From the IMG/VR virus record IMGVR_UViG_3300021356_000007, positions 1 through 64,000 of that record: DNA of 64,000 nt; one strand, given 5' to 3'. Position 1 is the stretch's first letter, and the number at the start of each line of letters is the position of its first letter. This document shows, piece after piece, positions 37,136 through 42,045 of this stretch. The position numbers and the translations under genes are program-made. The notes under the pieces were generated by a model. It made no database searches. It saw nothing but the letters and a program-made list of their open reading frames with translations, and was not told the origin of the DNA. Origin of the DNA: a virus.

Positions 37136-38389
37136 TCAGGCTGACCTATCAATTTCACCCTGAACCTTAGAACCATCTTGGCGACCCATGTTCATTGCTG
37201 CCTGCATAAGTTGCTGTCTAGCAAATTGTTGTGCCTCCGGGCTAGATGGGTCAGCGAATGCTCTCATAGTTGGTGTATTTCTTAAGCCCGGACTTAGCAT
37301 TATTTCTTTTTCTTCAGCACTCATAGGTTGCCTTTGCATGTCATCCATTGCTTGTCTCCTTGCGCCAGTCATCCTTGGCTCGAATAATTTACGAGAAACT
37401 CTCTCAGGTTTGTCCTCTTCGACAGGTGCTTCTTGTATTTTAGAACCGCCCGGTGTCATCATACCTTCGAGCATTGCTCGGATTCTATCTTCTTGGCTCA
37501 TTTCTTGAGGTGCTTCTTCTTGTTCAGGTTGAATGAATCTAGTTGTCATACCGGATAGAGGGTCTTTTCCAAAACCTCCAGTCTTCATACCTTCGACATT
37601 GCTAAGTTTTGAAGCAGACCTTTGACGAGCAAATGGATTTCTTTGGACCCTGCCAGTCTTATCACTGACTACTGGCTGATTGAATTGGTCTGTTTGCATA
37701 CCAAGGTTCAGTAAATTTTGACCTGACCTAGCACCACCTCTAACATCGAACCTACCGCCTCTGCTACCTGAAACCATACGGTCAGCAGCAGATGTCATAC
37801 CTTCTCTACCTCTTGCTCTTTCAAGCGGAGTAGTGAAACTTTGTTCAGGGTCTACATCCATCATAGGGATAGTCTGTGTAGGGTGTCTCACTTCTAGTTG
37901 CCCTGTGTTTGGGTTCAAAGCCATACTCGTACCCATTTGGTCTACCACATCTTCTCTTAGAGGACTGATGTCTCTCTCGATAGCAGCGACACTTTGAGGG
38001 ATAGGGTCACCCCTGCCTCCTCCAAGGTTACCTAGAGGAACTGGAACGCTCGCTGTCATTTCACCGGGTCTTTCTACATCACGCTGTACTGCGTCACCTC
38101 TACCACTAAAGGTATCAGTCATCCCCTCTAGTTCAGCCCTTTGCTCAGGAGTAAGCATCTCCAAATCTTTACCTCTTAGTCTGTTGAGCATACCGCCCCT
38201 CATTGTCGCTACTGGGTTCAAAACTCTTGTAGCGATACCTTGACGATTATCTAAAGCACTGTCGCCCATGTATTCATCAATGTATTCGTTAGACGGCATA
38301 CCTGCAATAGCAGGGTGAACTGTACCGTATATACCCTGTGCGCCGGGTTGTGCTTTCAATGTAGTCCAAGCGTTTTCGAGTGCGCTCAT
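37136..38389 (-). CDS. Disordered virion-block protein with N-terminal AWTTLK tag
   Basis: 417 residues. Starts MSALENAWTTLKAQPG. The rest is rich in Arg, Met, Gln, Gly and Pro, with a repetitive look (ERPGEMTASVPVPLG, RERxSR-type segments), so probably disordered. Its ATG overlaps the stop of the HMG-CoA lyase gene as ATGA, so the two are co-translated. No family recognised; an internal head protein is likely from composition and place. Confidence 0.6.
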   Translation of the reverse strand: MSALENAWTTLKAQPGAQGIYGTVHPAIAGMPSNEYIDEYMGDSALDNRQGIATRVLNPVATMRGGMLNRLRGKDLEMLTPEQRAELEGMTDTFSGRGDAVQRDVERPGEMTASVPVPLGNLGGGRGDPIPQSVAAIERDISPLREDVVDQMGTSMALNPNTGQLEVRHPTQTIPMMDVDPEQSFTTPLERARGREGMTSAADRMVSGSRGGRFDVRGGARSGQNLLNLGMQTDQFNQPVVSDKTGRVQRNPFARQRSASKLSNVEGMKTGGFGKDPLSGMTTRFIQPEQEEAPQEMSQEDRIRAMLEGMMTPGGSKIQEAPVEEDKPERVSRKLFEPRMTGARRQAMDDMQRQPMSAEEKEIMLSPGLRNTPTMRAFADPSSPEAQQFARQQLMQAAMNMGRQDGSKVQGEIDRSA

Positions 38390-39243
38390 GAGGTGGGGAT
38401 AGCGAGACCACTAAAAAAAGTGTTGATTGATTTTGCAAAGTCAGTTGCTTTCCCCAGCATCTTCTCGTCTACCCCTGTTTCAAAGCCCCAAGCGTGTAGA
38501 TGGCTGACAAGAAGGGCAGTATCAAGATTAGCCCCGCTGCCCTCTGCGAAGGGACAACCACCCAATCCCCCGATGCTAGAATCAAATTGCCTGATACCGG
38601 AAAATAAGCCAGCCCTAACAAGCCTGATTGCCTGTTCTTCTGAGCCTTTATGGTGCAAATGCAGAGCCGGAGTTAGGTCTTCTTCGTATACAATAGAAGC
38701 CCAGTCCTTTACCTCTTGCTCAGTCGCAGCACCAACCGTATCGCTGAGAACTACAGTAGAGCCTAGCATCTTCGCATCTCTGATGCAAGACTTGATTTCT
38801 GACTCAGAAAAACTACCGCTATATGGACTACCAAACGCCATGCTTATGTATACCCTAACTAAATCCTTGGGGTAAGCGTTGAGCATCGTCTTGTACATCA
38901 GAACAATTTCGCTTCGAGTCTTACCCATGTTCTTCAGGTTGAATGTCTCACAAGGGCTGAACACGATGTTGATGTAGTCCATACCTAAATCCATAGCCCT
39001 GTCAAAGCCCCTCTGATTCATGACAAGCCCAGCACCTATGCCAGTCCAAACTTCCTCTGCATCAGCCATCTGCGGCAAGATTTTCGGGTGAGCGAAACTG
39101 ACTTCCTCAATCTCAGTCAGCCCGCTGTCATACAGAAGCCCTATGAGTTTCTGTTTGTCAGAGGTAGGGACAAAGTGCTTGATGTATTGCAACCCATCTC
39201 TAGGACCAACTTCGTAGACTGTGATTTTCATAAGACCGTTCAT
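38386..39243 (-). CDS. HMG-CoA lyase homologue
   Basis: 285 residues, a full-length DRE-TIM metallolyase. Signatures: EVGPRDGLQ (Arg15, Asp16), EEVSFAHPKILPQMAD, FGSPYSGSFSES, DTVGAATEQEV, the metal-binding LHLHHKG (H195, H197) and the HMG-CoA-lyase loop GGLGGCPFA with C230, followed by N239. All catalytic and metal residues I can name are in place. The family splits 3-hydroxy-3-methylglutaryl-CoA into acetyl-CoA and acetoacetate. It is the first gene of the leftward block, next to the putative origin. In archaea HMG-CoA feeds mevalonate and membrane lipids, so a viral copy could change lipid supply. Start at 39243 or an ATG at 39231. Confidence 0.88.
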   Translation of the reverse strand: MNGLMKITVYEVGPRDGLQYIKHFVPTSDKQKLIGLLYDSGLTEIEEVSFAHPKILPQMADAEEVWTGIGAGLVMNQRGFDRAMDLGMDYINIVFSPCETFNLKNMGKTRSEIVLMYKTMLNAYPKDLVRVYISMAFGSPYSGSFSESEIKSCIRDAKMLGSTVVLSDTVGAATEQEVKDWASIVYEEDLTPALHLHHKGSEEQAIRLVRAGLFSGIRQFDSSIGGLGGCPFAEGSGANLDTALLVSHLHAWGFETGVDEKMLGKATDFAKSINTFFSGLAIPTS

Positions 39244-39366
39244 ACGAGTCCGGTGTAGAAATTAAACTTGTTGGTGATTACTCAAGTAGAAAAACTAGCG
39301 GGCTCTTTGGTATACCAAATTTTCTGTAAAATTTTTTTTGTTGGAACGCCGTGTGCGGTTAAAGGA

Positions 39367-39480
39367 GGCTAAACTCCCGTCTAAACTCCATCCCTCCGTC
39401 TAAACTCAGCCGTCTAAACTGCCGTCTAAACCGCAGTCCCCCAGTCTATAGACCGTATCACAGCGAGCCCGTCTAAACTC
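39367..39480. repeat. Repeated CGTCTAAACTC motif, iteron-like
   Basis: Full copies of CGTCTAAACTC lie at 39378-39388, 39397-39407 and 39470-39480; shorter ones at 39411-39420 and 39423-39431; a GCTAAACTC variant at 39368-39376. Two further CTAAAC units occur near 39709 and 39722. All point the same way and are irregularly spaced. They sit at the junction between the two oppositely directed gene blocks, so an origin or a regulator-binding array is the natural reading. Confidence 0.65.
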
Positions 39481-39596
39481 CAGTCGCTCGTAGGCGTACC
39501 TCTCGTATGTCATGCGTACCGTTGGTATTCGAAAGGGGCATTGGTGTCCATGTGAGCGAGCCAGCCCACACACTAATCGGGGTACTGCGAGCCAGT

Positions 39597-39624
39597 CGAG
39601 TACCAGTGGGCGGGCTGGTACTCG
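39597..39624. repeat. Perfect 10-bp inverted repeat in the intergenic hub
   Basis: CGAGTACCAG (39597-39606) and CTGGTACTCG (39615-39624) flank 8 bases. The surrounding stretch (39480-39720) has no convincing gene and a G/C-richer look than its surroundings, with related GGTAC and CGAGCCAG words. A binding site or an origin structure fits. Further hairpins lie at 39863-39890 (GTACACC/GGTGTAC) and 39900-39916 (CTCGAA/TTCGAG). Confidence 0.55.
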
Positions 39625-39775
39625 TGGGTAGGTGGTGGGGCGTGGGGAGTACCTCCCTCAACCCACGCATATGGGTGGTACATATTGCCCATTACCATAC
39701 TTACACGCCTAAACCCCATGTGTCTAAACGCACGCATATGATTCCTCTGCTAACTGGAAAACGATGGACTGAGCC

Positions 39776-39800
39776 GAACTGGTTATAAAGACCCAACAAA
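39776..39800 (+). promoter_or_regulatory. Early promoter box, copy 1 (TTATAAAG)
   Basis: GAACTGGTTATAAAG followed by ACCCAACAAAGG. TTATAAAG at 39783-39790 is a good archaeal TATA box. The same box occurs five more times upstream of rightward genes. About 25 bases downstream there is an ATG and a small GCCG-AAAA-CGGC hairpin, also present after copy 2. Confidence 0.7.
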
Positions 39801-39804
39801 GGAG

Positions 39805-39951
39805 ATGTTCGCCGAAAACGGCAGTCAACAACCACCTCCCCTCCCCTCCTCGACACATGGGGTGGGGCAGTACACCCTCATGGTGTACTACGGTGGTGTA
39901 CTCGAATGGTTTCGAGTGCATCAGGGTGGTTGTATATATCCTGCTAAATGA
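39805..39951 (+). CDS. Possible 48-residue leader peptide
   Basis: An open frame of 49 codons starts at the ATG right after promoter copy 1 (MFAENGSQQPPPLP) and ends at TGA 39951. Pro-rich start, then YTLMVYYGGVLEWF. The frame runs through two hairpins, so it may be chance or a regulatory leader. There is no second line of evidence. Confidence 0.2.
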   Translation: MFAENGSQQPPPLPSSTHGVGQYTLMVYYGGVLEWFRVHQGGCIYPAK

Positions 39952-39969
39952 TAACCGACTGACTGAACA

Positions 39970-39997
39970 GAACTGGTTATAAAAACCCAACAAAGGA
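39970..39997 (+). promoter_or_regulatory. Early promoter box, copy 2 (TTATAAAA)
   Basis: GAACTGGTTATAAAAACCCAACAAAGGA, nearly identical to copy 1; TATA at 39978-39985. A GCCGAAATCGGC palindrome (40003-40014) follows, then AAAAAGGAGAGATACAA before the ATG at 40048. The tandem duplication of promoter plus leader suggests strong or dual control of the first rightward gene. Confidence 0.75.
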
Positions 39998-40047
39998 TAT
40001 GACTGCCGAAATCGGCAACCAAAACAAAACAAAAAGGAGAGATACAA

Positions 40048-40698
40048 ATGAGTAATAAACACACAATGGAACAACTGAAAGTAACAGGGGTAGCAATACC
40101 TGTGCAATTCAACGCTTGCACAGAGTTAATGAGGCAACATGTAAATGCCAAAGGTAGTGCGAAACTTGCGCTACCTATACAACCTGACGCTTTTGAGAAC
40201 GGTAGGCTTGAATGGGATGACAAGATGAACGACTTTACTAAGGCTGACATCCACAGAGGTCTTGCGGCTATCGTGAAACTGGGTCAAGAACTGAACATAA
40301 CAAATGCAAACGGACTACCAACCGCAGGTAAGGCTGTCGGTTCAAAGGCTATCCTAAGCAGTTACCACACACCTACAAGAGGCAAGAACATAGGCAAGAG
40401 ATTCTTCAACATCTTGATTGTATGGCAGAAGATTAAGCAAGCAGAGAAAGCCAACGCTAACATGCAGGCTCTTGAGGTTGCTAAGAAATTCGGTATGCAA
40501 GTCTATGTCGAAACAGTCACACTGAAAGACGGTTCGCACAGAGCATTCACTGACATCAAGAAAGCAATGGGTGCATATTGCAGACAAAACTTTGGTAATG
40601 AATGGCACAATTCGCCTAACAAAAGATTGTATCAGGCTGAAGCAATGGGTGCTATCATGTCTGCTGATGACGAAAGAATCGTTCACCCACAAGAGTGA
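40048..40698 (+). CDS. First early gene, unknown function
   Basis: 216 residues, mildly basic, helical with a central TNANGLPTAGKAVGSKAIL loop and FFNILIVWQKIKQAEK. The C-terminal third holds a DIKKAMGAYCRQNFGNEW segment. Strong leader: tandem promoters and an AAAAAGGAGAG site. Its prominent place suggests an abundant early protein such as a DNA-binding or takeover factor, but no family is recognised. It is followed by a long structured non-coding stretch. Confidence 0.75.
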   Translation: MSNKHTMEQLKVTGVAIPVQFNACTELMRQHVNAKGSAKLALPIQPDAFENGRLEWDDKMNDFTKADIHRGLAAIVKLGQELNITNANGLPTAGKAVGSKAILSSYHTPTRGKNIGKRFFNILIVWQKIKQAEKANANMQALEVAKKFGMQVYVETVTLKDGSHRAFTDIKKAMGAYCRQNFGNEWHNSPNKRLYQAEAMGAIMSADDERIVHPQE

Positions 40699-40715
40699 AC
40701 CTATCAAACTCATAC

Positions 40716-41160
40716 AGAAGTAGTACGGCGTTATGCCGAGACCAACGATTCCCCAGCGGGGAGGGGTAGTAACAATATCCCCCGCATCACATTCCACTGG
40801 AGAGAGAATGCTGACGGGCATGGTGGCGACTGAGGTGTAAGATACCTTATCTCGAAACATCTATCTGTAACACGACCAAAGAATTCGGTCAGTGTTGAAA
40901 ACCGAGGACAACATACGCAAGTATCGAGTCGCCTGTTAGCAGACGGGAATGAACTAATCTCGTAGCGGTGAGAGATAATTGACCGCCGACTGGGTGCGAT
41001 GCCCAGTTATATTCGTGGTTGCTACCCTTCTTGGAAAATAAAGCCACACCCTCGGAGAGCCGTATGCAACCAGCATCCTCCACCTACCCACGGCATTTCA
41101 TTATCACATTCCACCAGCCTCTTACCTGTAAGGTAATCGAGGCACTGCTAAGAAGTAGTA
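40716..41160 (+). ncRNA. Candidate large structured RNA, unclassified
   Basis: No plausible gene lies in 40699-41307. The stretch is dense with stems: CGGC/GCCG (40728-40740), GCGGGG/CCCCGC (about 40756-40785), CATTC/GAATG (40790-40810), AACACGACC/GGTC-GTGTT around 40870-40896, GCGGT/ACCGC (about 40965-40985), ACTGGGT/GCCCAGT (40989-41008, with a G-U pair that favours the plus strand), a long-range TGGTTGC/GCAACCA helix (about 41016-41073) and TTACC/GGTAA (41121-41135). A 10-base direct repeat AGAAGTAGTA flanks the region (40716-40725 and 41151-41160). I do not recognise RNase P, SRP, group I or group II cores. It may be transcribed from the early promoters through the first gene. Confidence 0.65.
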
Positions 41161-41194
41161 AGAAATAGTATAGTAATAATACAATTAATACAAT

Positions 41195-41298
41195 ATATAC
41201 AACATACTACTTTACTTTATTATAATATTAGGGGCTTACCATATTGTTGTATATTATATTCCGAACATTGAATACATTGAATTAACCATAAAAAGGAG
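41195..41298 (+). promoter_or_regulatory. AT-rich promoter with inverted repeat
   Basis: An AT-rich stretch after the structured RNA. ATATACAAC (41195-41203) and GTTGTATAT (41246-41254) form an inverted repeat around TTATTATAATATTA, a good operator layout. A TATA-like GTATATTATATT (41249-41260) and the ribosome site AAAAGGAG (41291-41298) precede the ATG at 41308. This promoter differs from the GGTTATAAAG class. Confidence 0.5.
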
Positions 41299-41307
41299 AC
41301 TGAAAGC

Positions 41308-42045
41308 ATGACGATAGCATTTGTGAAAGGACAAAGAGCAAGAGGAAAGAGACTGATACTAACTGGCGATGCAATAGTAAGACAGTTACATGAACTAGCC
41401 GAGGATATAATCTACCATGATGTAGATGAATACAATAACTTGGGTGACGAATGCCGTGTGCCTCCTGACTATGCCGAGGCTTGTATGCTAGTAGACAATC
41501 TCAGGATAGTCACACAGAAGTTCCAAAAGATAACAGATAAGATTAGCAGGTGGGGCTATCAAAAATACTACGCTCAATCATACAAAGAAGGGAGTACCTT
41601 GAGAGAGATAGATGGCTTCGGACTTGAAGACTGGGAGTCCGAGTATCAAGAGAAAGCACACAGGTGCATGGGCAAAATACAGGAGAAGTTCGACACACTC
41701 ATGGACACAATCAAGAACCTTGAGCCCAGTGACTTGCACGATTCTATTTCCTTTTTCGACCAAAGTTATCAAGCAAGTAGCGGGAGATGGGAATACGAAT
41801 CAACGAAAGTAGTCATTGTCAAAGGGTTCGATGACTTTGGTATCGAGGACAACAGAACACGCTACAAAGATATGACACTCAAAGAAATGCATGACGCACA
41901 AGAGCAAGCGTACTGGGATAGCCTCTCCGATGCACAGAAGCAGAAGGAAGAGGAGTACGCTAAACCTGACATCACATACATGAGAGAGAACGGCTACACT
42001 TCCTTCGCATGTAATGACAACGGTACAATATCCTACTGGAGATGA
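41308..42045 (+). CDS. Hypothetical protein, 245 residues
   Basis: Mainly helical, acidic and basic mixed, with no cysteine pattern: RARGKRLILTGDAIVRQLHE at the start, then coiled-coil-like helices (KAHRCMGKIQEKFDTLMDTI) and SLSDAQKQKEEEYAKPD near the end. First gene of a coupled set with its own promoter. Not recognised. Confidence 0.7.
   Translation: MTIAFVKGQRARGKRLILTGDAIVRQLHELAEDIIYHDVDEYNNLGDECRVPPDYAEACMLVDNLRIVTQKFQKITDKISRWGYQKYYAQSYKEGSTLREIDGFGLEDWESEYQEKAHRCMGKIQEKFDTLMDTIKNLEPSDLHDSISFFDQSYQASSGRWEYESTKVVIVKGFDDFGIEDNRTRYKDMTLKEMHDAQEQAYWDSLSDAQKQKEEEYAKPDITYMRENGYTSFACNDNGTISYWR

Follow-up and report, generated by a model that had tools for sequence, protein, structure and literature searches.

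What occupies the 609 nucleotides (nt) that separate gene X from the next open reading frame (ORF), at 41308, in the viral record IMGVR_UViG_3300021356_000007? The window, by which we mean the whole stretch of DNA analysed here, comprises 64,000 nt (positions 1-64,000) of this record, which is linear and has 91,888 bases in total; the interval in question spans 40699-41307. We propose that this gene-free stretch after X is very probably a real RNA gene. On balance, we favour a stand-alone, early, trans-acting noncoding RNA of a large marine, Magrovirales-like archaeal virus, whose gene would belong to the transcription unit that opens the early (replication) block. The RNA may represent a viral family not yet described, one that is unmatched by Rfam at its thresholds.

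A preliminary description of this DNA had presented the interval as free of genes, and this holds: no ORF within 40699-41307 passes a hexamer coding score. Short ORFs of at least 50 amino acids (aa) do occur there on the minus strand. The plus strand of the first 472 nt (40699-41170) folds with a z score of -2.81 against dinucleotide shuffles, none of 100 being as good. For the minus strand of the same segment, z is -0.43 and 34 of 100 dinucleotide shuffles are as good.

A core of about 100 nt (41050-41148 in the window) recurs in nine virus records, in seven of them in full; the copy in G027 is diverged and that in G061 is truncated where its contig stops. To the extent that the contigs cover it, the core stands at the head of the early gene block in all nine. 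It follows X or a clear homologue of X in the window, G048, G015, G044 and G091, and in G027 a gene that is only weakly similar to X. The full RNA varies in size between records, from about 120 nt up to some 650-760 nt of hairpins. Conserved sequence extends to about 41148.

The first homologues were those located through X. A tblastn search found X in 3 of 50 related records (G048, G015 and G044), and the gene-free stretches after X in these records are long, each with an alignable 3' domain, and have fold z scores of -5.45 (L130), -4.58 (L128) and -4.86 (L129). When the covariance model R1, built from the window and these three 3' domains, was applied to 90 related records (50 + 40), nothing convincing was added; its weak matches in G011, G018, G020, G005, G085, G084 and G073 (E 0.007-0.52) were put down as noise by score and not examined singly. 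A scan of IMG/VR with a 19-base pattern, followed by R1, yielded L231 (G091), with 63.6 bits and an E value of 3.4e-15. Here, the gene order is that of the window: an HMGL-type gene, the strand switch, an X homologue, the RNA and an AT-rich tail. The X homologue, which was recognised by profile (E 6.8e-55), played no part in the search for L231. A global alignment of the window stretch with L231 scores 222.5, and 50 letter shuffles reach at most 116.

These pattern scans were not exhaustive, as G015 fits both patterns and is absent from the lists of both scans. L231 was the only true member among 20 new stretches from the 19-base pattern. An earlier DNA pattern had picked out 57 stretches, many of which have a 67-nt sequence in common in unrelated flanks, and only G044 and G048 were true. 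Searches of the stretch by blastn against phage records and against the 50 related records (best E 0.0016 in the latter) gave short matches, which we took as chance. A recurring 15-mer (query 5-19) lies within one sequence common to relatives and not beside an RNA.

A second model, R2, was made from seven cores in the trimmed alignment A6, since columns 1-45 of its predecessor A5 are unreliable; in A6 itself, L367 and L220 have their terminal hairpin one column out of register. The gaps in A6 are 1, 2 and 3 columns wide, which speaks against a coding reading. R2 was run on 99 records (50 + 49, HVTV-1 included) and 141 loci. It finds G027, which is outside its training set, with E 0.001 in its own record and 0.0039 among the 141 loci, in the gene-free stretch behind that virus's first early gene and on the expected strand, at a site spotted by eye beforehand. 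The cut copy in G061 is found with E 0.0091 (141 loci). There is no R2 match in HVTV-1 and none that convinces among the loci, at least 118, of a pattern scan of genome contigs (best E 0.1); the other R2 matches (E 0.004 or above, including two in G072 at 0.004 and 0.007) were dismissed as noise on their scores.

That the RNA is an independent gene, with the core of about 100 nt as its essential part, is best supported by compact forms that stand without X. A regular expression for the core motif (AACC..CC, preceded by AGAG or CAGCG and followed by C-rich sequence) matches 8 times in 1,894,408 positions, counting both strands and overlapping loci, and every match lies at the RNA position; the window itself does not fit the expression. 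The matches fall in five viruses, G044, G048, G015, G091 and, newly, G006. A blastn search with the G006 sequence then led to G009 (95.7% identity over 230 nt) and to G061 (97% over 67 nt, promoter included, at the contig end). In G006, G009 and G061 the core sits directly behind a TATATAAAG box (a TATA promoter), with neither X nor any other ORF between, and the X profile has no match in these three.

These compact forms bear directly on the alternative with the best standing, to which we give a modest chance, namely that the element acts in cis, either as the 3' untranslated region of X or as the leader of the next gene (a stability element, an attenuator or an autoregulatory site bound by X). 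This would fit the five records, the window among them, in which X or a clear homologue precedes the RNA; in the window the candidate RNA starts 17 nt past the X stop codon. Against it, the core in G006, G009 and G061 directly follows a TATA box and no X is detected, and in G006 the next gene has a separate TATA box.

Beyond the core, the 5' body of the core-bearing long members holds a hairpin with a conserved loop, hairpin A. The GGGU..AUA loop on a stem is present in 7 of 12 stretches (window, L128, L130, L129, L212, L213 and L382), by a descriptor that has 69 matches in 746,560 background positions. The descriptor has no match in L206, L217, L219 and L204; L231 has a hairpin of this type with a stem of 4 base pairs (bp), by a similar descriptor. 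All 24 of 24 cells are paired across five distinct stems, and 1 of 120 permutations of the 3' arms is as good. The covariation evidence is drawn from few sequences. As to the covarying stems that the preliminary description had asked for, hairpin A, a feature defined post hoc, speaks in their favour, and the test on the terminal hairpin of the core is weak, as set out below. The long-range stem proposed there, TGGTTGC (41016-41022) with GCAACCA (41066-41072), is present in the window but lacks covariation support: the GGTTGC/GCAACC pair does not vary between the window, L128 and L130, is shorter in L129 and is disrupted in L231, the nearest relative. A 16-nt complementarity between 39623-39638 and 41077-41092 was put down to chance, by eye only.

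Strong folding is also seen in a wider set of early-block stretches. The sense strands of 11 early-block stretches (window, L231, L128, L129, L130, L206, L212, L213, L217, L219 and L204; z values from 30 shuffles) have z scores between -2.47 and -7.25; 50 other same-strand gaps of the same group, with which they were compared, have a median of -0.79 (p 1.6e-6), and some of these gaps are copies of each other (L376/L377/L378, L203/L368 and L219/L371). For the six core-bearing long stretches alone against the 50 gaps, p is 0.0002. The 50 gaps replaced an earlier control of 12 hand-picked gaps (p 0.0002), which had included two former candidates (L203:5394-5825 and L218:12083-12779). The stretches come after the first early gene, with three exceptions: in L213 and L217 a second gene intervenes, and in L204 the contig start does not show the strand switch. 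Neither R1 nor R2 matches L206, L213, L217, L219 or L204 convincingly, so that no model supports the homology of these five to the window RNA; L213 shares hairpin A.

G030 and G092 have the same RNA as each other (L213:8401-8732, minus strand, and about 37-560 of L382, plus strand, by eye). In G092 (L382:1-600), an ORF of about 70 aa splits the RNA between its 5' and 3' parts; in G030 the RNA is uninterrupted. Two other gene-free stretches in these records fold strongly on the sense strand, L364:1306-1868 (G092:91362-91924; z -4.64, and -5.14 in a separate run) and L213:7297-7550 (G030; z -6.83).

Several observations weigh against a structured, stand-alone RNA. The descriptor and the arms of hairpin A were chosen after the sequences had been seen. 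The test on the terminal hairpin of the core is weak, as 25 of 25 cells pair, yet 6 of 120 permutations are as good, and RNAalifold on the first four cores returned no pair in which both sides change. In G006 and G009, the compact RNAs do not surpass shuffles in folding (z -0.88 and -1.35). Convincing R2 matches were obtained in only 7 of 99 other records, six of the seven being training members; many contigs stop short of the region. Among the 50 control gaps, six reach a z score of -2.4 or lower (to -6.83), and among eight strand-switch gaps tested, six, that of the window included, have a sense z below -2.2 and another has -2.17; the strand-switch gap of G032 is unstructured (z +1.03). Finally, the sense strand has the lower z score in 11 of 14 stretches (the exceptions being L129 and L220, with a tie in L367), but also in 31 of the 50 control gaps, so that strand preference is weak evidence.

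The last of these points would also suit an element that works at the level of DNA, such as a replication origin or a recombination site with folding single strands. The stretch is close to the strand switch, which has five CCGTCTAAAC-type 12-mers, and several contigs end nearby. However, these repeats and the adjoining GCCGTGTG..TAAAG block lie upstream of X, outside the stretch, and in G006 and G009 the core comes immediately behind a promoter. We consider a DNA-level element improbable.

That the C-rich strand of the core serves as an antisense or decoy for Shine-Dalgarno sites is disfavoured and seems scarcely likely: CCTCC is found in the window, L128, L129 and L130 but is absent in L231, L367 and L220, and when the window segment was set against 21 early-gene start regions, 117 of 200 of its own shuffles paired as strongly.

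The preliminary description had also considered a mobile RNA, had pointed to a 10-base direct repeat, and had named a degraded gene as a finding that would speak against an RNA. The repeat, AGAAGTAGTA at 40716 and 41151, is exact, but it is no more than chance would give, as one or more 10-mers recur in 173 of 1000 sequences made by dinucleotide shuffling of the 609 nt. A longer exact repeat, the 12-mer ATCACATTCCAC, occurs within the same stretch, inside the RNA at 40786-40797 and 41103-41114, with its second copy in the core. Mobility is not supported, given that the repeat is at the level of chance and that relatives have the RNA at the same location; no empty site was seen in the loci looked at, and no systematic search for one was made. 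A degraded gene or a mobile element (an intron or an insertion sequence relic) with a target-site repeat, already disfavoured and the least credible reading of all, could draw on this repeat at the ends and on the small ORF that interrupts the related RNA in G092, but the repeat is at chance level, relatives carry the RNA in the same place, with the core at one position in nine records, there is no coding signal, and no intron or element family in Rfam matches.

Is this then a known RNA under another guise? The Infernal search with all Rfam models that had been proposed gave nothing that reached the gathering score, whether in the window, in the remainder of its record (L388 and L389) or in L231, L128, L129 and L130. 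With the limit raised to E 10, the interval 40650-41310 has two minus-strand matches, neither to GOLLD nor to ROOL and both far below the cut-off. Transfer RNA (tRNA) genes number zero in the window, in the rest of the record (L388 and L389) and in nine related loci. In agreement with the preliminary description, no group I or group II intron, RNase P or signal recognition particle core was matched by Rfam or ARAGORN, and the same is true of transfer-messenger RNA.

The likeness to GOLLD and ROOL suggested at the outset survives only in layout, with neither a model match nor a tRNA behind it. As in GOLLD, a 3' core that can be aligned (here in seven viruses) is joined to a body that varies in length and sequence. 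The sections of PMC12286853 on which we draw describe GOLLD as a closed 14-mer RNA nanocage, with a linker that sometimes carries tRNAs and a variable part that can hold an inserted gene; the small ORF in G092 recalls the latter, a resemblance of layout only. GOLLD is often near tRNA genes and belongs to bacterial phages, whereas the RNA described here has no GOLLD model match and no tRNA was found, and it belongs to an archaeal tailed virus, stands in an early gene block, often beside X, and has compact members of about 120 nt. Like ROOL, as those sections present it (PMC12286853), it is viral, several hundred nucleotides long and elaborately structured, with a function that is not known; unlike ROOL, it has no ROOL model match and no tRNA was found here. 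Among archaeal tailed viruses, the closest comparison is with the antisense RNAs of HFTV1, which are noncoding transcripts, as reported in PMC12542753, as the RNA described here would be. The HFTV1 RNAs are antisense to genes, whereas this RNA lies between genes and its position and core are kept across viruses. A partial literature search showed no structured noncoding RNA of magroviruses or archaeal tailed viruses in titles and the beginnings of abstracts, and no paper joining magrovirus with non-coding RNA; the main text of the magrovirus survey PMC10160649 does not mention non-coding, noncoding or intergenic.

Taken together, the position of the RNA, the core conserved in eight other records, the folds of the long members and the lack of an Rfam match lend good support to the proposal that a new structured RNA arises here, presumably from the early promoters. 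The features of the locus are collected below.

Table 1. Features of the RNA locus and its surroundings (window coordinates).
Feature	Position	Strand	Basis or remark
TATA-like box P1 (TTATAAA)	39783-39789	+	early block; part of duplicated 82-nt unit
TATA-like box P2 (TTATAAA)	39977-39983	+	upstream of gene X
Gene X, 216 aa, first gene of early block	40048-40698	+	ORF
Noncoding RNA candidate	40716-41150	+	gene-free; fold z -2.81; syntenic homologues; start as in the preliminary description
Hairpin A, GCGGGGA / loop GGGGUAGUAACAAUA / UCCCC(C)GC	40756-40785	+	loop conserved; stem sequences of homologues differ
Small hairpin ACUGGGUGCGAUGCCCAGU	40989-41007	+	L231 has UUGGGCGAUGCCCAA, not aligned to ACUGGGUGCGAUGCCCAGU in the stretch alignment
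3' domain modelled as R1	41014-41140	+	116.8 bits (training member); mean column identity 68 and 78%, three homologues
Conserved core modelled as R2, AGAGC..GCAACC..C-rich..CATTC..hairpin..ACTGC	41050-41148	+	27 invariant columns in 7 viruses; 78.1 bits (training member)
Terminal hairpin of core, outer stem GCCUC/GAGGC	41117-41143	+	fold and alignments
AT-rich tail	41150-41307	+	in part common to L231 (alignment)

The major capsid protein of the window virus has 34.7% identity to that of HVTV-1 and matches those of haloarchaeal tailed viruses, and its other genes include a terminase, a family B polymerase (PolB), a chaperonin and a PD-(D/E)XK nuclease. Two gene blocks run in opposite directions, diverging from the strand switch (39244-40047). 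According to the description of the International Committee on Taxonomy of Viruses, Magrovirales are viruses of Poseidoniales, relatives of Druskaviridae with a family B polymerase, genomes of 90-110 kilobases and morphogenetic and replication modules in opposite directions (PMC12999244). The window virus fits this with its HVTV-1-like capsid protein, PolB, the strand switch and a record of 91,888 bases. From these features of its sequence we infer a Magrovirales-like archaeal tailed virus. An HMGL-like gene (38386-39243; Pfam E 7.1e-18) at the start of the late block is a probable auxiliary metabolic gene.

P1 and P2 are the two matches to TT[AT]TA[AT]A on the plus strand of 39201-41310. The 82-nt promoter unit, consisting of the TATA box, ACAAAG and a short hairpin, is duplicated (39747-39828 and 39941-40022), and L129 and L231 likewise have two TATA-type units upstream of X. 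The five copies of the CCGTCTAAAC-type 12-mer fall within 39369-39489 of the strand switch and are possibly iterons of a replication origin; the GCCGTGTG.GG.TAAAG block beside them is present in other related records too. The contigs L201, L362, L363, L231 and L128 end a few hundred bases from the strand switch or the RNA, which is perhaps an assembly break or a physical end.

Protein X has no recognisable fold. Its AlphaFold2 model is poor (predicted local distance difference test score 57.9), the best Foldseek match has an E value of 1.0, and Pfam matches are below the cut-off. Profile A4 detects X in seven of 50 records; as it includes proteins from all seven among its rows, this is not an independent test for them. 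Comparison by hhalign with the smaller profile A1 points to an X-like gene in L217 (E 2e-6, probability 89) and gives weak matches in L212 and L219 (E 0.002 and 0.0013, probability 14 and 18). The neighbouring gene in G027 was rejected as an X homologue because it resembles X only weakly.

As to the role of the RNA, we infer the following. The RNA would be transcribed from P2 together with X and then be cut or terminated near the AT-rich tail, which is probably the transcript end and the promoter of the next gene, and would thereby be parted from the X message. It would act in trans, early in infection. The core would be the part that contacts the partner of the RNA, and the fast-changing 5' hairpin body could be a scaffold, perhaps binding protein X or other copies of the RNA. 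Since a clear X stands beside five long forms, and no X was detected next to the three compact members, X may be the partner of the RNA and the body its scaffold.

A bolder extension, to which we allow a rather slim chance, is that the element belongs to an ornate viral RNA family of marine archaeal viruses, in which a core of about 120 nt has grown by the accretion of hairpins (and, once, of an ORF) and which forms a particle early in infection, either with X or with itself. If this were true, such a particle-forming RNA would be an archaeal-virus counterpart of the GOLLD and ROOL RNA assemblies. The jobs of large structured phage RNAs are still poorly understood, according to the sections of PMC12286853 cited above. 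A family whose compact and ornate members occupy one genomic place would make it possible to ask what portion of such an ornate RNA is indispensable, and protein X, encoded next to it, provides a first candidate partner for the RNA.
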